A stretch of 13,944 nucleotides of DNA, taken from positions 1 to 13,944 of the forward strand of contig JAHKZS010000074.1 of assembly GCA_020626545.1 (NCBI GenBank). Reading direction: 5' to 3'. Each line of letters opens with the position of its first letter. Position 1 is the stretch's first letter. This stretch comes from a bacterium (GTDB taxonomy: Bacteria; Bacillota; Clostridia; Oscillospirales; Acutalibacteraceae). Both the position numbers and the translations under genes were made by a program. The notes beneath the pieces were generated by a model that was given only the letters and a program-made list of their open reading frames with translations, was not told the origin of the DNA and did not search any database. This document shows, one piece after another, positions 2-13,944 of this stretch.

Positions 2-289
2 AGCTCTAAGGCTTCGTCCAAAGCTTCCAAAACTACCGTAAGCGGTAAATCTTCTTCTGCCGCTTCTTCGGGAAGTAAGACAAGCTCCAAGGCTTCCAAA
101 AAAACAACTTCTAAGAAAACATCTAAGAAAACTTCTGAGAAGAGCTCGGTTTCTTCGAGCAAGACATCTTCCAAGAAGTCTTCTAAATCAAGCACTTCGT
201 CGAAAAAAAGTTCCAAGACAAGCTCGAAAAAATCTTCCGGCGACAGTGTAGCGAAGGATAACGTGGAGGTGGATTTCAGTGATCTTTAA
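2..289 (+). CDS. C-terminal fragment of a Ser/Lys-rich protein (5' end outside the window)
   Basis: The frame beginning at base 2 is open from the window edge to a TAA at 287-289 and contains no Met, so this is the 3' end of a gene starting upstream. The 95 visible residues are extremely low in complexity: about 37 Ser and 22 Lys in the first 80, in short SSK, SKK and TSK steps. A short acidic end (VAKDNVEVDFSDL) follows. Ser codons are mixed (TCT, TCC, TCG, AGC, AGT), so this is a protein-level bias and not a simple DNA repeat. Such a tail is disordered and strongly cationic. It could contact cell wall, nucleic acid or membrane, but the function cannot be told from the tail alone. Its last 11 bases overlap the GTG start of the next gene, which suggests translational coupling in one operon. 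Confidence 0.75.
   Translation, partial: SSKASSKASKTTVSGKSSSAASSGSKTSSKASKKTTSKKTSKKTSEKSSVSSSKTSSKKSSKSSTSSKKSSKTSSKKSSGDSVAKDNVEVDFSDL
265..272 (+). promoter_or_regulatory. Ribosome binding site that supports the GTG start at 279
   Basis: GGAGGTGG sits 6 bases before GTG 279, inside the 3' end of the Ser/Lys-rich gene. No ATG gives a better placed start, and the residues following the GTG form a proper signal peptide. Confidence 0.8.
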
Positions 290-764
290 TAAAGCCAAAA
301 AAGTAATCGCGGCGGCTTTAGCTGTTACAATGATTGCTTCTGTATCGACAGTATTCGCGGTTAACGCTGAGGAAAAGATTTTACTCGGCGACGTAAACGG
401 CGACGGAAAAATTAACGTAATGGACGTAACCGCTATCCAGAAGATAACCGCGGGACTTAAAGACGCTCCCGATAATTACATCGAAAAAGGCGACGTTAAT
501 TTAGACGAAGTAGTTAATATCAAGGACGCCACCATTATCTCTAAGTATGTAGCTAAGCTCGTTTCCGAGCTTCCTGTTACAACTCCTATCGAGGATGATA
601 CCACTGCTCCCGAGGAAACTACTATCGCTACAGAACCGGGCTCAGACGAAACTCAGCCCGCGACTAAAGTAACCGAGCCCGCGACCACAGTAACCGAACC
701 TACAACAGAAACTACCACTCAGCCTGAAACAGATGAATGGGATCCGCATATTTATCAGCCATGA
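279..764 (+). CDS. Small secreted dockerin-only protein with Thr/Pro-rich tail
   Basis: This 161-residue protein has a signal peptide (basic MIFNKAKK, hydrophobic segment about 9-27, likely cleavage after VNA at 28-30). A type I-like dockerin follows at about 37-93. It has two Ca-binding F-hand repeats: D38-V-N40-G-D42-G-K-I-N-V-M-D49, and D72-V-N74-L-D76 to D83, where Glu77 replaces the usual Gly. The rest (about 97-150) is a disordered Thr/Pro/Glu linker ending in DEWDPHIYQP, with no catalytic or binding module. Dockerins plug secreted proteins into cohesin scaffolds of cellulosomes or amylosomes, so this may be an adaptor, a capping subunit or a carrier for its tail. The GTG start at 279 is preferred because GGAGGTGG lies at 265-272 with good spacing. 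The gene overlaps the genes on both sides by a few bases. Confidence 0.85.
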   Translation: MIFNKAKKVIAAALAVTMIASVSTVFAVNAEEKILLGDVNGDGKINVMDVTAIQKITAGLKDAPDNYIEKGDVNLDEVVNIKDATIISKYVAKLVSELPVTTPIEDDTTAPEETTIATEPGSDETQPATKVTEPATTVTEPTTETTTQPETDEWDPHIYQP

Positions 765-1471
765 TATTCAGGTATAAGATAGCTGATATTGTATTCGACG
801 CGGATATAAGATACCGTTACACTTATAATATTATGAAGGATTACCTCGTAGACGACGAGCCTGCGAGGTTCTCCATTGTTATAACGGATGAGGATATAGA
901 AAACGAGAAAAAGCTTTCGCCTCATTCTTTAAGTGACGCGAGCTATGAGTGTACCGCGGTTTACCGCAAGTATATATACGAGGTACTCGATAAGTACGAC
1001 GCGTTCTTTTTCCATTGTTCGTCTATCGAGGTAGACGGCAAGGCTATTATGTTTACCGCGAAAAGCGGTACGGGTAAAAGTACCCACCGCAACCTCTGGA
1101 TGAAGAATTTCGGCGATAGGGTAAAGATTATCAACGACGATAAGCCTATTATAAGAAAGGTCGACGGCGTTTTTTATGTTTACGGAACACCGTGGCGCGG
1201 TAAAGAGGCTATGGGCGAGAACGTAAAGGTTCCCGCTAAGGCGCTGTGCTTTTTATCGAGAGCCGAAAAGAACTCTATCGGCTCTATTTCTACGAGCGAA
1301 GTCGTAGCGAGAGCGCTTAACCAGACCGTCCGCCCGTCTGACGCGGGGCTTATGGGTAAGCTTCTCGATTTACTCGACGGCTTTTTACAGCAGGTTAAGT
1401 GTTACGATTTAAGAGTTAATATGGACGATGAAGCGGCAGTTACCGCTTATAACGAGATTATGAAGGAATGA
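761..1471 (+). CDS. HPr-kinase/PEPCK-like P-loop protein of the RiPP-associated type
   Basis: The 236-residue protein has a Walker A motif AKSGTGKST (100-108) preceded by FFHCSSIEVDGKA (83-95), then INDDKP (124-129) and YGTPWRGKE (141-149). This pattern is that of the HPr(Ser) kinase C-terminal domain and of HprK-like proteins in peptide-modification clusters, some of which phosphorylate Ser of lasso peptides. The normal N-terminal regulatory domain of true HprK is absent, so a role in carbon catabolite control is unlikely. The ATG at 761 is preferred over an in-frame ATG at 737 because it forms an ATGA overlap with the stop of the dockerin gene. No Shine-Dalgarno precedes it, so translation probably depends on termination of the dockerin gene. 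The substrate is unknown; a Ser or Thr in an operon-encoded protein is a guess. Confidence 0.82.
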   Translation: MIFRYKIADIVFDADIRYRYTYNIMKDYLVDDEPARFSIVITDEDIENEKKLSPHSLSDASYECTAVYRKYIYEVLDKYDAFFFHCSSIEVDGKAIMFTAKSGTGKSTHRNLWMKNFGDRVKIINDDKPIIRKVDGVFYVYGTPWRGKEAMGENVKVPAKALCFLSRAEKNSIGSISTSEVVARALNQTVRPSDAGLMGKLLDLLDGFLQQVKCYDLRVNMDDEAAVTAYNEIMKE

Positions 1472-1475
1472 GTTT

Positions 1476-1742
1476 ATGAAGGTAAAGAACGATTATCTGC
1501 TTCGAAACTTCGGCGGCGATTATATCGTTGTAGCCGTAGGGGAGGACAGCGAGGATTTTAATAAACTTATTACGCTAAATTCGGTCGGAGCATTTATTTT
1601 TAAGGCGCTCAGCGAGGATATTACCCGCGGGGAGCTCGTCGATAAAATGGTTGACCACTACGAAATCGACCGCGCTACCGCCGAAAAAGACTGCGACGCT
1701 TTTATTAAAAAGCTCGGTGACGCTGGACTTTTAGATGCCTAA
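1476..1742 (+). CDS. PqqD-family peptide-binding protein
   Basis: This 88-residue protein (MKVKNDYLLRNFGGDYIVV...) has the PqqD-like winged-helix plan. A short beta hairpin carries the usual 'llr...g..y.vv' start, then LNSVGAFIFKAL (about 34-45), then helices with ITRGELVDKMVDHYEID, ending in an aspartate-rich DAFIKKLGDAGLLD helix. The central LNSVGAFIFKAL matches the common 'LN.tga.iw.lL' signature. PqqD proteins (RiPP recognition elements) bind leader peptides and present them to modifying enzymes. AAGGAA at 1463-1468 lies 7 bases before the start. The gene begins 4 bases after the kinase-like gene and overlaps the next one by 8 bases, which implies equal dosage and joint function. No leader peptide is recognisable nearby apart from the signal peptide of the dockerin protein. 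Confidence 0.85.
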   Translation: MKVKNDYLLRNFGGDYIVVAVGEDSEDFNKLITLNSVGAFIFKALSEDITRGELVDKMVDHYEIDRATAEKDCDAFIKKLGDAGLLDA

Positions 1743-2199
1743 ACAGATTGAGGATGTTATCCGCGAGCGCGGATATTATATGACTAAAACCAAGGGTACG
1801 AGTATGTATCCGCTTATAAAATCCGACTGCAGCGACGTCTGTATCGTTAAAATCGACGGCGAGATTCAGAAGTACGACGTAATCCTTTATAAAAGGGAAA
1901 CAGGCGAACATGTACTCCACCGTGTGCTCGGTAAAAACGACGGCGGATATATATGTTGCGGCGATAACCAATGGATTCTCGAGTACAACGTTACTCGGGA
2001 TATGGTTTTGGGTAAGCTCGATTCCTGGTATAAAAGAGATAAAAAATATACCGTGCGTGATAAGCGGTATTTAAGATACGTTAAATTCTGGTGCAAATCC
2101 TTAAAGCTTAGAAAGCTTATGCTAAAGCTTATGCGCTTTAGGTATAAGCCTAAGGAATGGTGCTACAGGGTTTATAAAAAACTATTTAAAAAAGGTTAA
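1735..2199 (+). CDS. S26/S24-like signal-peptidase-fold protein without a membrane anchor
   Basis: Residues 20-26 (KGTSMYP) carry the signal peptidase box B with nucleophile Ser23. Residues 59-65 (HVLHRVL) carry an H-R pair as in the ER/SipW type, with His62 as likely general base, and CGDN at 75-78 matches the conserved GDN box. The catalytic plan is therefore Ser-His, not the Ser-Lys of bacterial Lep. Length is 154 residues. Unlike true signal peptidases there is no hydrophobic N- or C-terminal helix. Instead the C-terminal third (about 95-154) is strongly basic with Trp, Tyr and Phe (YVKFWCKSLKLRK), fitting peripheral attachment to membrane or nucleic acid. The start overlaps the PqqD-like gene by 8 bases and has no good ribosome binding site, so coupling is likely. 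It may trim a peptide handled by the two genes before it (inference). Confidence 0.8.
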   Translation: MPKQIEDVIRERGYYMTKTKGTSMYPLIKSDCSDVCIVKIDGEIQKYDVILYKRETGEHVLHRVLGKNDGGYICCGDNQWILEYNVTRDMVLGKLDSWYKRDKKYTVRDKRYLRYVKFWCKSLKLRKLMLKLMRFRYKPKEWCYRVYKKLFKKG

Positions 2200-2202
2200 T
2201 TG

Positions 2203-3060
2203 ATGGAAAATGTTATTTCGGTAAAAAATATGCGTGAGAGCGACGCTTTCACGATTAATACCTCTGTAAGCGGTAAGGAACTTATGCAGAGAGCCGCCGC
2301 GGGCGTTTATAAAAGCGTTAAATGGAGAGGGAACATAGCCGTTATCTGCGGCAGCGGTAATAACGGCGGCGACGGTTACGCTCTGGCGGAAATCCTTTTC
2401 GATAACGGATACCGCCCGGTTATTCTGAGGGTGAGCGATAAGCTTTCCGACGACGGAGCGTACTATTACAGCCGTTGCAGGAATAAAGGTATTAACGAGA
2501 GCTTTTGCGACGAATATACCGAGCTCGGCTCTTACGATATAATTGTCGATTGTATTTTAGGAACGGGTTTTTCGGGTGAGCTTAGGGAGGATATGGTTTC
2601 TCTTATCGAGAATATAAACCGCGCGCCCGCTTATAAAGTCTGCGTAGATATTAACAGCGGGCTTTCGGGAGCTAACGGCACGGCGAGACCGATTGCCGTT
2701 AAATCCGACTTAACCGTTTCGATAGGATATTTTAAAACAGGTATGTTTTTAAACGACGCTCCGAAATATATCGGCTCGCTTAAAAACGAGGATATAGGAA
2801 TAAAGCTGTTGAAAAAGCAGTATTATTTAATCGGAAAGGACGAACTCAGCCCGTTTACGGGATATGCGAGCGTATCGCTTTCGTCCGATAAGTTCGCCTT
2901 AGAGTACGCTACCGACGAGGACGAGTTCAGAAGAAGTCCGCTTAAGGTCGTTTCTAAGGAAAGCTGCGACAGCCAGAAGATTTTTGTAGTAGATTACGGC
3001 GGAAGTAAGCTTATAGTCGACCAGACTTACGTTTATTTCCAATCCGATAAAGTTATATAG
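2203..3060 (+). CDS. nnrE: NAD(P)H-hydrate epimerase domain protein (YjeF_N) with extra C-terminal region
   Basis: Residues about 1-205 form a YjeF_N/NnrE domain, which interconverts R- and S-epimers of damaged hydrated NAD(P)H. Seen are ELMQRAA (26-32), the nucleotide-binding loop GSGNNGGDGYA (50-60), the catalytic-type Asp in VDCILGTGFSG (115-125) and VDINSGLSGANG (148-159). In many bacteria this domain is fused to the NnrD ADP-dependent dehydratase. Here NnrD is missing. Instead residues about 210-285 form a short, beta-rich extension (SPFTGYASVSLSSDK, KIFVVDYGGSKLIVDQTYVY) that I do not recognise. The ATG at 2203 is preferred over the in-frame TTG at 2200; AAAAGG at 2190-2195 gives a modest ribosome binding site. 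It starts 3 bases after the peptidase-like gene, so it is in the same operon, although a metabolic link is not evident. Confidence 0.82.
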   Translation: MENVISVKNMRESDAFTINTSVSGKELMQRAAAGVYKSVKWRGNIAVICGSGNNGGDGYALAEILFDNGYRPVILRVSDKLSDDGAYYYSRCRNKGINESFCDEYTELGSYDIIVDCILGTGFSGELREDMVSLIENINRAPAYKVCVDINSGLSGANGTARPIAVKSDLTVSIGYFKTGMFLNDAPKYIGSLKNEDIGIKLLKKQYYLIGKDELSPFTGYASVSLSSDKFALEYATDEDEFRRSPLKVVSKESCDSQKIFVVDYGGSKLIVDQTYVYFQSDKVI

Positions 3061-3068
3061 GAGGAAAT

Positions 3069-3887
3069 ATGGAATTAATTAACGGAAGTAAAAACATTAC
3101 TAACCCCGAGCTTTTGGAAGCTATAGAAAAGATGCAGGCGGATAATACCCCCGATAACGTAAACAGAATGATTGACTGTGTGATGCAGGCTCAGTTTATT
3201 ACTCCCGGCGTGGTGTCTAAGCCTCAGAACGTCGCTAAAACCGACGGCAACGGAACTGTTATGCAGCAGGAAACTCAGGTACAGTTCCAGCTTATTGAAA
3301 ATCAGAACAAGGAAAAATTCTTCCCCGCCTTTACCGATCAGGAGGAAAAGAAAAAATGGACTGTTTCCGAGGGCAAGGACGACGTGATTATGACCTTCGA
3401 CGGCTTTGCTCAGGTGCTTGCCGAGAAGGATTGCCACGTAAAAGGCTTCGTAATCAATCCCTTCGGAAAGAGCGTAGCTTTCCCGAAAGATATGGTTATG
3501 TCGCTTAAAAAGCAGAAGGACGAGAGAGAAAAGAACTCGGGACTTAAGCAGCAGACATTTACCGCCGACGATAAAGTAGAGCTCGGCGATCCCGATCCCG
3601 ACAAATATCCGATAGATATGATGGCTTCTATCATAAACTATCTCCAGGAGCGTTCTGATGTAGACGCCGCTTACCTCAAGATGTTTAAACGCGAGCAGGA
3701 TGAAAAGGCGAGCTACCTCGTTATTGTCGATTTTCAGGGCGATAAGATGGAAGAAATATTCAAGGGTATTTCGATGAGCGCTTCTCCGCATCTCGACGGC
3801 TACCAGCTTTCGATGATGCCGTACTCAATTCCTTTCGCTCAGAAAGCGGTCGAGGACGTAGAGCCGTTCTTTACCGCCGAAGATTAA
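3069..3887 (+). CDS. SseB-family protein
   Basis: This 272-residue soluble protein has two parts. The N-terminal SseB domain (about 25-150) includes VQFQLIENQNKEKFFPAFTD, a Trp-containing strand and GFVINPFGKSVAFPK. The C-terminal SseB_C domain (about 170-270) runs through KYPIDMMASIINYLQ, DAAYLKMFKRE, YLVIVDFQGDKMEEIFKGI and a final EPFFTAED. SseB was first described as a protein affecting serine sensitivity in E. coli, and the family's biochemical role is not settled. AGGAGGA at 3059-3065 is a strong ribosome binding site over the stop codon of the epimerase gene. As the last gene before the terminator at 3896-3928 it closes the first operon. The serine link is of mild interest because the downstream operon encodes amino acid transport, but nothing here proves a joint role. 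Confidence 0.85.
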   Translation: MELINGSKNITNPELLEAIEKMQADNTPDNVNRMIDCVMQAQFITPGVVSKPQNVAKTDGNGTVMQQETQVQFQLIENQNKEKFFPAFTDQEEKKKWTVSEGKDDVIMTFDGFAQVLAEKDCHVKGFVINPFGKSVAFPKDMVMSLKKQKDEREKNSGLKQQTFTADDKVELGDPDPDKYPIDMMASIINYLQERSDVDAAYLKMFKREQDEKASYLVIVDFQGDKMEEIFKGISMSASPHLDGYQLSMMPYSIPFAQKAVEDVEPFFTAED

Positions 3888-11596: not shown

Positions 11597-13944
11597 ATGC
11601 AAATGTTCAAAAAATCAGTTGCTTTAGTGCTTTCCGTTCTTATGTTACTGTCTATGCTCACAGTAGCTGCCGGAATGTCTGCTTTTGCGGCTGAAACTTA
11701 CAAGGTAACGGCTAAAAACACTCAGGGTGTGTTTGCCGATGTTTCCAAGACCTATAAGGCAGGGGACGAGTTTGACCTTAACGTTTATTTAACAGCGGAT
11801 CAGCTTCTCGCAGACGGTCAGCTTGATGTAAAATTTGATCCCACAGCGTTATTTGCTACTAAAATCACTAAGGGTACTCCGTTCTCCGGAGATGCTGTAT
11901 CTTTTGTCGGTGCAGGTGCTAATAGCGAGAAATATCAGAACAAAAACAGCTGTGTTGCTATCAACTTCACATGTGGTATTGACGCTGCCAATTACTCAAC
12001 ATCATCGATTTTCTTCACAGTTCACTTCAAGGTTAAGGACGCAATCAACGCGGACCAGACTATTGATGTGGATGTAGAGATTCTCGACGGTATCGAAGAT
12101 GAGTACGATTTATCTACACGTTTTGCTTATATTGACAGTCATGCGACAGTTGCCGCTCAGAAGGATAACTTCTCGATGACTGCCGAATTAACAGGCGGCT
12201 CTACAGAGCCCGAAACTCAGCCTGCAACACAGGCTCCCACAACAGAAGCTCCCACAACACAGGCTCCTACAACCGCAGCTCCTACAACCAAGGCTCCCGA
12301 TACTTATACAGTATACTTCACAGACGCTCTCGGTTGGGGTGCTCCCAACATCTACTACTGGAACGACGGTCCCGAATGGCCCGGCACAGCTATGACTTTA
12401 GATCAGGAAGATAACGGCTTCGGTCAGAAGGTTTATAAGGCTACTGTTCCCGCAAGCGCTGCGGGTATCGTATTCAACGGCGGCGGAAAACAGACTGTAG
12501 ATATTAAGTCTGACATCAAAGACGGCGCTCAGTGGTATCCTATCAATGAGAAAGACAGCCAGGGCCACTACAAAGTAGAGCTCGCAGGCGGCGAACAGCC
12601 TACAACAGAGGCTCAGGAAACAACTACTCCTGTAGGCGATAAGGACTATTACCTCTTCGGTTATATCAACGGCGCTAACTACGCTTGCGAAGACGACGCC
12701 GCTAATATGGGCGACTATAAGTTCGTAAACGGTAAAGTTACAGCTACATTCGACCAGACAAGCTATGTTGCTGTTAAAGAAGACGGTAACGCTAACTGGT
12801 ATATGACTGACGGCTGGCAGGGTGAAGTAAGCTCCGCTACACTTTACAATACAACTTCTCTCGGAACTGACGCTAACAAGCTTTATGTTCCCGGTAATGT
12901 AGAAGTTGAATTTACTCTCGTTAAGAATGGCGACGGTACATTAACACTTTCTTATACAACTAAGCAGGAACCCACAACTGCTGAACCCACAGAAGCTACT
13001 ACAGCTAAACCTACAGAAGCTACCGAGCCGACAACAGCGGCTCCCGAGCAGACGACAGCCGCTCCCGAGCAGACAACAGCGGCTCCCGAGCAGACAACAG
13101 CGGCTCCTGAGGAAACAACAGTCGCTCCTACAACTAAGACTCTCGAAATGTACACATTCTATTATCTGCCCTCCGCAGAGCAGGAAGCAGCAGGTAATAC
13201 ATACAAGCTCAACTTCAACGATCCTAACGGAACTAATCCTGAAAACTGGCATCAGTACACATTCGTTCAGACTCCTATCAAGATGAACGGCGTAAACCTC
13301 TACAGCGTATCTGTTCCCAAGGATTTTGATGATGTAACAGTATTACAGTATCAGGTATATAACGGCAACGATTGGGTATCTGAGAACAAGTTTGCTAACG
13401 TTAAACTCAGCGATTACAACAACCAGGTTGTAAGATCTGACGGTACAATCGAGCCTGAACAGCCGACAACAGTAGCTCCCGAGGAGACAACAGCAGCTCC
13501 CGAGGAGACAACAGCAGCTCCCGAGGAAACAACAGTTGCTCCCGAGGAAACAACAGTTGCTCCCGAGCCGACAACCGAAGCTCCCGAGCCGACAACAGTT
13601 GCTCCCGAGCCGACAACAGTAGCTCCTCAGCCGACAACTGTAGCTCCTCAGCCCACAACAGCAGAGCCCACTAAGGCTACACAGGCTCCGACAATTGCTC
13701 CTTCTAAGGTTGACTTTAACAAGCCTGTTGATGAAGCTTCAGCTGTAAACGCTATTTCTAAGGCTAAGTCCGACGGCGATCCCAAGGGATCCAAGTTCAG
13801 CGGTCTTAAAGCTAAGGTTGCCAAGACTACCAAGAAATCCAACAAGGTTACTTGGAATAAGGTTTCAGGCGCTAAGAAGTATATCGTAATGGGTAACAAG
13901 TGCGGTAAGACTAACGGTAAGTTTAACGCGTTCAAGAAGCTCAA
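11597..13944 (+). CDS. Secreted multi-module starch-binding surface protein (3' end beyond the window)
   Basis: The frame is open for 782 codons from ATG 11597 to the window edge. A signal peptide (1-31, cleavage near AFA|AE) is followed by a beta-sandwich at about 34-198 that resembles cohesin-like domains (AGDEFDLNVYL, GQLDVKFDPTAL, FFTVHFKVKDA). A Thr/Pro linker (203-235) leads to a CBM26-like starch-binding module at about 236-315 (GWGAPNIYYWNDGPEWPGT, IVFNGGGKQTVDI; aromatics Tyr253, Tyr254, Trp255, Trp261). A module at 350-455 starts YYLFGYINGANYACE and resembles modules in ruminococcal starch proteins. A further beta module lies at 517-615, then a long Thr/Ala/Pro/Glu linker, then an Fn3-like repeat start (FSGLKAKVAKTTKKSNKVTW; GAKKYIVMGNKCG). 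It probably binds starch at the cell surface and may belong to an amylosome. Whether it ends in a dockerin or sorting signal is outside the window. Confidence 0.85.
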   Translation, partial: MQMFKKSVALVLSVLMLLSMLTVAAGMSAFAAETYKVTAKNTQGVFADVSKTYKAGDEFDLNVYLTADQLLADGQLDVKFDPTALFATKITKGTPFSGDAVSFVGAGANSEKYQNKNSCVAINFTCGIDAANYSTSSIFFTVHFKVKDAINADQTIDVDVEILDGIEDEYDLSTRFAYIDSHATVAAQKDNFSMTAELTGGSTEPETQPATQAPTTEAPTTQAPTTAAPTTKAPDTYTVYFTDALGWGAPNIYYWNDGPEWPGTAMTLDQEDNGFGQKVYKATVPASAAGIVFNGGGKQTVDIKSDIKDGAQWYPINEKDSQGHYKVELAGGEQPTTEAQETTTPVGDKDYYLFGYINGANYACEDDAANMGDYKFVNGKVTATFDQTSYVAVKEDGNANWYMTDGWQGEVSSATLYNTTSLGTDANKLYVPGNVEVEFTLVKNGDGTLTLSYTTKQEPTTAEPTEATTAKPTEATEPTTAAPEQTTAAPEQTTAAPEQTTAAPEETTVAPTTKTLEMYTFYYLPSAEQEAAGNTYKLNFNDPNGTNPENWHQYTFVQTPIKMNGVNLYSVSVPKDFDDVTVLQYQVYNGNDWVSENKFANVKLSDYNNQVVRSDGTIEPEQPTTVAPEETTAAPEETTAAPEETTVAPEETTVAPEPTTEAPEPTTVAPEPTTVAPQPTTVAPQPTTAEPTKATQAPTIAPSKVDFNKPVDEASAVNAISKAKSDGDPKGSKFSGLKAKVAKTTKKSNKVTWNKVSGAKKYIVMGNKCGKTNGKFNAFKKL
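12203..12300 (+). repeat. Degenerate Thr/Pro linker repeat between the first two modules
   Basis: About six 15-base units of the APTTx type (APTTE, APTTQ, APTTA, APTTK) separate the cohesin-like and CBM26-like modules. This looks like a flexible, probably glycosylated linker. Confidence 0.7.
13031..13129 (+). repeat. 21-base minisatellite coding TTAAPEQ units
   Basis: Four nearly identical 21-base units (first unit ACAACAGCGGCTCCCGAGCA plus G) and a partial fifth encode heptapeptides TTAAPEQ. The third unit repeats the first exactly and the second differs at only two bases. They link the module at 350-455 to that at 517-615. Confidence 0.85.
13466..13669 (+). repeat. 21-base minisatellite coding TTxAPEx/TTVAPQP units
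   Basis: Nine 21-base units plus a partial unit encode TTVAPEE, TTAAPEE, TTVAPEP, TTEAPEP and TTVAPQP heptapeptides. The units are related to those at 13031-13129 and separate the last beta module from the Fn3-like region. Confidence 0.85.

Follow-up and report, generated by a model that had tools for sequence, protein, structure and literature searches.

A putative LPP-type maturation set with an unlinked precursor and two exported constant-tail proteins in a relative of Ruminococcus

What would a kinase, a peptide-binding protein and a peptidase act on when they are encoded next to a secreted dockerin protein? The question is raised by a 13,944-base stretch of DNA, the whole of contig C33 (hereafter the window) in the draft genome G000 of a Ruminococcus-like gut bacterium. 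This genome is 86.8% complete, and its close relatives carry the labels uncultured Ruminococcus or Clostridia. A string of same-strand genes at the start of the window encodes an exported Ser/Lys-rich protein (A), a secreted dockerin protein (B), an HprK-like kinase (K), a PqqD-like protein (P or P1) and a signal-peptidase-like peptidase (S or S1), and continues after S with yjeF and an sseB-like gene; C and N denote the precursor peptide and LppN, respectively. The first-pass annotation of this DNA had singled out B, K, P and S as four close-packed genes, leaving out A at one end of the string and yjeF and sseB at the other. These genes are real, and both their coordinates and their family matches were confirmed. 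Moreover, the dockerin gene and the trio of K, P and S are associated recurrently and beyond chance, with 22 loci of the same type (window-type loci) in 22 genomes. We propose that the trio is a maturation set for a linear polyphosphorylated peptide (LPP), a kind of ribosomally synthesized and post-translationally modified peptide (RiPP), that its precursor is encoded elsewhere in the genome, and that A and B are two exported partners. We assign this reading a probability of roughly 0.53, based on gene families, key residues, gene order, joint absences, the unlinked precursor and tail similarity at the level of groups.

LPPs are known from the lpp cluster of Paenibacillus alginolyticus (Popov et al. 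2026, PMC13381572). According to the main text of that study, LppK phosphorylates core Ser repeatedly and modified Ser, not Thr or Tyr, at its site, LppB binds the YxxP leader, LppS cleaves the leader with the help of LppB, and LppN and LppD are part of the core set. Compared with this description, the window system has the same kind of parts: an HprK-like kinase, a discrete RiPP recognition element (RRE) with the same pocket residues, a signal-peptidase-like leader peptidase with Ser, His and Asp, short precursors with a YxxP leader, no macrolactam cyclase beside the trio, and LppN in some sister loci. Unlike the lpp cluster, it has an unlinked precursor, neither LppN nor an exporter at the locus, and two exported constant-tail proteins in the gene string.

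The LPP-type identity of K, P and S is well supported by sequence comparison and structure models, in agreement with the earlier suggestion that these are RiPP-type accessory genes. The sequence of P matches solved RREs, namely LppB (9x8z_B, E=0.0044), PbaB1 (9x90_B) and TbiB1 (5v1u_A). The LppB pocket residues N33, V35, Y60 and D70 are conserved in all 22 window-type P proteins; the F74 position holds Phe in 20 of them and Tyr in two, and the V63 and V67 positions differ in most rows. The idea that the residue at LppB position 35 varies together with the leader Pro failed, as P proteins of a second locus (see below) have Ser or Thr there, yet the second-locus precursors read have YxxP. For K, HprK-type family matches are weak (best ScmC, E=2.8e-6) and a sequence search of the PDB gave no match, while its structure model (mean predicted local distance difference test score, pLDDT, 95.0) matches PEPCK and HprK structures. 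The model of S (mean pLDDT 85.8) is closest to signal peptidases (best E=1.2e-3, none reaching E 0.001), with LexA-type folds ranking behind them; a PDB sequence search with S returned a ribosomal protein alone (E=0.97). The putative catalytic residues of S are invariant across a 17-row alignment. No export signals were seen by eye in K, P or S. Neither a macrolactam cyclase nor a B2 peptidase was found beside the trio among the open reading frames of the window and in Pfam searches with eight window proteins. LppN and an MsbA-like exporter (LppD) are likewise absent from the window locus, and LppN follows S in three of the 22 window-type loci (G008, G162 and G163; PF14907 confirmed for G008).

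The same annotation had seen no RiPP precursor. This holds for the window and fails for the genome: contig C148 (1623–1796) encodes a candidate, MKSEYKTPSILIEDLEKVDVLLLESTDTDTSTTKRLERENRYGDFMSFAFNPANWFD, detected in a profile search with E=0.0023. The peptide consists of a YKTPSI leader, a Ser-containing segment and the tail ENRYGDFMSFAFNPANWFD. It thus has the form by which LPP precursors are recognised (35–200 amino acids with an N-terminal YxxP leader), encoded in trans. An earlier precursor profile had no match in G000 at E≤1, and a later one scores the peptide at 8.8e-24 with the peptide itself among its rows. A detailed match to the full Bacilli motif YxxPxVLxHQxIxFETxxS was not seen in the precursor. 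On these features we have fair confidence that the C148 peptide is a precursor. To see how typical such peptides are, one may turn to the window-type genomes, for 20 of which 21 precursor places were inspected (G094 and G112 were outside this sample). An unlinked precursor is present in 18 of the 20, and all 18 have both YxxP and a [DE]Nx[YF] motif. In other lineages, a short peptide C is often encoded directly after B (31 were extracted); none was found in this place in window-type loci. As a separate observation, the gene directly downstream of the precursor on C148 (L305, 1848–2345) encodes a BspA-type leucine-rich repeat protein (LRR_5 E=1.2e-27).

The exported proteins come next. B had been taken for the only exported product of the string, which proved incorrect, since A is exported as well: a complete copy in locus L031 (7023–7541) has a lipoprotein-type signal and a Ser/Lys-rich spacer. 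A simple lipobox pattern matches 57 of 62 A rows, and the remaining five include the cut window row and those of G154 and G163. The signal peptide of B was read directly from the sequence. The B tail follows a genus pattern of approximately [DE]G[YW]xxx[IV][YFI][QRK]P in 68 of 71 B rows, and the final Pro is present in all 71. A simple dockerin pattern matches 58 of the 71, several of the misses being cut rows or evident dockerins. In G005 and G018, B keeps the tail without a recognisable dockerin (Big_2 is present in G005); for this reason we rejected the dockerin as the key feature and take the constant part of B to be its C-terminal tail, the dockerin apparently being replaceable. One A tail, at L137 3095–3418 (G026:C48), reads IYEEPQINFSDLE and matches the RRE-binding motif as YxxPxI, unlike the other A tails read.

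How widespread are these tails? Profiles run on 161 genomes of the genus at E≤0.01 detected the A tail in 59 genomes and the B tail in 67, with either of them in 71. Wherever one contig carries both genes, A lies directly upstream of B; further A-tail matches are at G140:C2 and G143:C3. Tail-bearing precursors, with a match extending to model position ≥52, occur in at least 45 genomes, and among the matches listed all fall within the 71 genomes having an A or B tail. When the 11 genomes that supplied the profile are excluded, the count among the matches listed is 34 of 34, with a chance probability of about 2e-15 if genomes were independent, which their kinship denies.

The A tails and the precursors have more in common than their distribution. 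A matrix derived from 30 unique A tails was slid across the cores of 30 unique C peptides encoded beside B, with 2000 shuffled sets as the control. The mean best score was 2.41 vs −5.60 for shuffled sets (standard deviation 0.67, highest −2.92), and the best place coincided with the [DE]N motif in 28 of the 30 peptides. For 18 unlinked window-type peptides the score was 2.38 vs −4.78 (standard deviation 0.88, highest −1.25); these set scores overstate independence, as the peptides are kin and the profile contained the tail. A looser pattern yielded 19 tail-bearing unlinked peptides, in 16 of which the best place is at the motif. The corresponding control with B tails was not raised on C cores (−9.92 vs −8.41). 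The likeness is clear in G008, where A has DNVVIDFDEI and C has ENIYISFFDL, and faint in G000. As a group, then, A tails are far more like the C-terminal motif of the precursor cores than expected from the shuffled sets, and in G000 the likeness is weak. Two related ideas were set aside. Similarity of A and precursor tails within genomes (p=0.05, n=40) is confounded by kinship and was not used. The idea of a leader split across the A and B tails had no test in its favour, and precursor cores give a better fit to the A matrix than leaders do.

Genes that are absent together provide additional evidence. A tree built from 70 K proteins groups the window type into one clade of 24 rows (support 100/100). 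One member of this clade, G031, carries K-yjeF-sseB; B, P and S are absent beside K, and the 510 bases that remain up to the contig end contain no A. Neither an A nor a B tail match was detected genome-wide in G031 at E≤0.01. In G178, also inside the clade, a divergent A accompanies K-yjeF-sseB, and B, P and S are absent there. Each of the two genomes keeps one PqqD protein, at the second locus, while two are present in 19 of the 22 window-type genomes and one in G154, G162 and G166. Neither G031 nor G178 is among the 95 genomes matching the tail-bearing C profile at E≤0.001; a looser precursor profile gives one and two matches, respectively. These observations bear on a condition that the first-pass annotation named as refuting its reading, a wide occurrence of the trio without any dockerin or secreted partner. 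It does occur elsewhere without A or B tails. Within the window-type lineage, however, the genes stay linked, and B is likewise absent from both relatives in which the locus has no P and S.

The second locus adds a possible exporter. On G000:C135 (L159, 1337–3786), a second PqqD protein and an S26 peptidase are encoded with an ABC exporter and no kinase beside them. At the second loci of window-type genomes (L162–L165) and of G031 (L175), there is likewise no K beside P, and the upstream genes encode a secreted protein of very large size and a dockerin protein that is also secreted (LRR_5 plus dockerin in L165). Several second loci encode a short YxxP-type peptide; genes of the ABC and NTP_transf_5 types lie downstream (PF14907 confirmed in L162). 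This upstream part is absent from L160 (G005) and L161 (G018, cut after P). In some other relatives (L170, L176, L096 and L097), K stands beside the second-locus P; in L176, L096 and L097, two secreted proteins, one very large and one with a dockerin, are again encoded ahead of the LPP-type genes. Since the window K is the only HprK-like match in G000, it may serve both LPP loci. With secreted dockerin proteins at second loci and B at the window locus, dockerin proteins therefore accompany LPP-type genes at two kinds of locus.

In the proposed mechanism, P1 would hold the YxxP leader of the C148 peptide while K phosphorylates Ser near the leader–core border. S would then cleave the leader off, and the resulting linear phosphopeptide would leave the cell through the ABC exporter encoded at the second locus. 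A would be a lipoprotein anchored in the membrane on its Ser/Lys spacer, displaying a tail that resembles the peptide motif across the genus. B would be secreted, usually with a dockerin, able to sit on a cohesin scaffold and bearing the second constant tail; the cohesin and CBM26 protein on the same contig could hold it. The shared tail suggests a shared extracellular partner, for which A might compete with the peptide, as in self-protection, or at which A might help to place it.

A number of observations weigh against this reading. In the window itself, neither LppN nor an exporter is encoded, and the NCBIfam matches of K, P and S are all under curated cut-offs (TIGR02228 for S). The precursors were found by profiles that contain the tail; no clear tail-bearing precursor was found in G131 (a loose DNKF alone) or G154, and G121, outside the 71 genomes, has a match over positions 1–49 that reaches the motif. 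C peptides beside B mostly are without the Pro of YxxP, which is present in one of 31. Taken singly, only 15 of the 30 C peptides beside B reach p<0.05 with the A matrix, as do nine of the 19 unlinked peptides that bear a tail; in one of the nine, from G007, the best place lies off the motif. Leaders, too, give slightly raised scores with the matrix (−3.28 vs −4.70, standard deviation 0.55). The likeness does not reach significance for the peptides of G005, G167 and G130 or for that of G000 (score −4.4, p=0.36); because of this last result we lowered our confidence both in the proposed system and in the stronger version discussed next. Finally, the joint absence of B, P1 and S1 is limited to two cases, in one of which, G178, a divergent A persists, and 22 of 75 loci have A-B or A-B-C without K, P, S or N in the fetched stretch.

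The stronger version would wire a phosphopeptide RiPP into a surface scaffold, with A copying the C-terminal epitope of the secreted RiPP for a common extracellular receptor and B, usually bearing a dockerin, tethering or presenting the system on cohesins through or beside its own constant C-terminal peptide. We regard it as possible, at odds well below even. If true, epitope mimicry would be built into a RiPP family, serving immunity or co-assembly.

Alternatively, A and B could be an amylosome-type surface module with a role of its own, the LPP genes being its neighbours by regulation or history only. The loci that speak for this possibility are found among the 75 annotated ones, whose fetched stretches vary in length and sometimes reach contig ends, so that absences apply within the fetched stretch. 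Of the window-type loci, 16 have the order A-B-K-P-S-yjeF and three the same with LppN; in G007 the order is B-K-P-S-yjeF, A being on a separate contig, the G112 locus is truncated behind S, and G146 is without S. Elsewhere, A-B-C alone occurs 13 times and A-B alone nine times, and these are the loci expected of an independent module. The rest comprise A-B-C-P-S-N (seven), B-C (four), B only (three), A only (two), two each of A-B-C-K-P-S-N, B-C-P-S-N, A-B-C-P, A-B-P-N and A-B-C-P-N, and one each of A-B-C-P-S, B-C-P, A-K-yjeF and B-C-K-P-S, the last in G059 with an A-like gene. Domain matches place both the type I dockerin of B and cohesins in G000; the cohesin of the window scored 29.5 bits, above the cut-off, in one scan and 23.6 vs 24.1, just below it, in another. 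The window resembles dockerin/cohesin systems such as the R. bromii amylosome in the type I dockerin on B and in the cohesin and CBM26 protein on the same contig. Unlike in such systems, no enzyme or carbohydrate-binding part was recognised in window B, whose constant element is a C-terminal tail. Moreover, A-B stands beside PqqD proteins of differing residue patterns in several lineages, A tails as a group resemble precursor cores, B is absent together with P1 and S1, and B exists without a recognisable dockerin. We therefore consider an independent surface module unlikely.

Another alternative is that the trio acts on A or B or both: the tails would be follower-type recognition elements held by P1 prior to export, K would phosphorylate Ser within the Ser/Lys region of A, and S would trim one of the two proteins. 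A and B do share a gene string with K, P and S, A is Ser-rich, B, P1 and S1 are jointly absent from G031 and G178, and the G026 tail IYEEPQINFSDLE has the YxxPxI match. On the other hand, the A and B tails of the window are without YxxP, while P1 keeps the YxxP pocket and the genome encodes a precursor with YxxP. Export signals are present in A and B, unlike in K, P and S as judged by eye, and the linker of B is Thr-rich, whereas LppK modified Ser rather than Thr or Tyr in the main text of PMC13381572. Such direct action thus seems improbable.

That K is a housekeeping kinase tied to yjeF-sseB, with P, S, A and B as inserted passengers, is very unlikely: the K tree does contain 11 rows, or 12 if G178 is counted, with K-yjeF and neither P nor S, and K persists where B, P1 and S1 are absent, but K is the sole HprK-like match in each of eight genomes (G000, G005, G007, G008, G015, G018, G031 and G033), and the second loci read there are without K (L161 being cut after P), so K may serve them.

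Returning to the proposed LPP-type system, it can also be compared with paeninodin-type phosphorylated lasso peptides. These share with it an HprK-like kinase and a PqqD-like B1 protein as accessory genes, which have been reported in rumen Firmicutes (PMC8498205, PMC7533575). Unlike in these clusters, the window trio has no macrolactam cyclase or B2 peptidase beside it, and its peptidase is signal-peptidase-like. The words "dockerin" and "ruminococc" are absent from the main text of PMC13381572, supplements excepted. No literature linking dockerins or Ruminococcus with LPP-type genes was found, supplements and subscription papers being outside the search, and the papers searched yielded no description of the A/B extension or of the tail likeness. 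A comparison can also be made with the LanI-type immunity lipoproteins of lantibiotic producers. These are, like A, lipoproteins encoded with peptide maturation genes; unlike them, A has tails resembling the peptide rather than a peptide binder. The proposed reading would move the cassette towards a RiPP family described in 2026 and extend that family to gut and rumen relatives of Ruminococcus, with precursors apart from the enzymes. The constant tails on two exported partners would then offer a handle on the role of LPPs, which the main text of PMC13381572 leaves open.

The features of the window are collected in Table 1. The genes are tightly spaced: A and B overlap by 11 bases, B and K by 4, and P and S by 8, with a gap of 4 bases between K and P. 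We placed the start of K at 761, within an ATGA overlap, and not at 737.

Table 1. Features of the 13,944-base window (window numbering)
Feature	Position	Strand	Basis or remark
Gene A, 3' part (5' end cut by contig start); exported Ser/Lys-rich protein	2..289	+	Tail profile match 236-286
A-type C-terminal tail DNVEVDFSDL, final 10 residues	257..286	+	Tail profile
Gene B; signal peptide, dockerin type I, Thr/Pro linker, conserved C-terminal tail	279..764	+	Open reading frame, Pfam; GTG start
Dockerin type I domain, B residues 36-91	384..551	+	PF00404 E=1.7e-13
B-type C-terminal tail WDPHIYQP	738..761	+	Genus tail pattern
K, HprK-like kinase, LppK-type, 236 aa; Walker A FTAKSGTGKST	761..1471	+	Weak NCBIfam matches, structure model
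P (P1), discrete PqqD-like RRE, LppB-type	1476..1742	+	PF05402 E=7.1e-16
S, S24/S26-like signal-peptidase-like peptidase, LppS-type; Ser23, His62, Asp77	1735..2199	+	Alignment, structure model
yjeF, NAD(P)HX epimerase domain protein	2203..3060	+	Family match
sseB-like gene, end of conserved block	3069..3887	+	Family match
Cohesin and CBM26 protein, runs off contig	11597..13942	+	Cohesin domain scores; possible docking partner of B

Two further observations concern the surroundings of A and of the precursors. In the lineage of G034, G127 and G059, in which C is next to B, a response regulator gene lies directly upstream of A (L067, 4936–7024; L250; L284, 7099–8809), and a signalling role is therefore possible. 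A histidine kinase gene precedes the response regulator in G034, according to Pfam, and in G059 by resemblance (L284, G059:C1). In G012 (C20:34346-40504, L171), short precursor-like peptides give weak matches at intervals of about 3 kb, a spacing suggestive of tandem units that include large secreted proteins.

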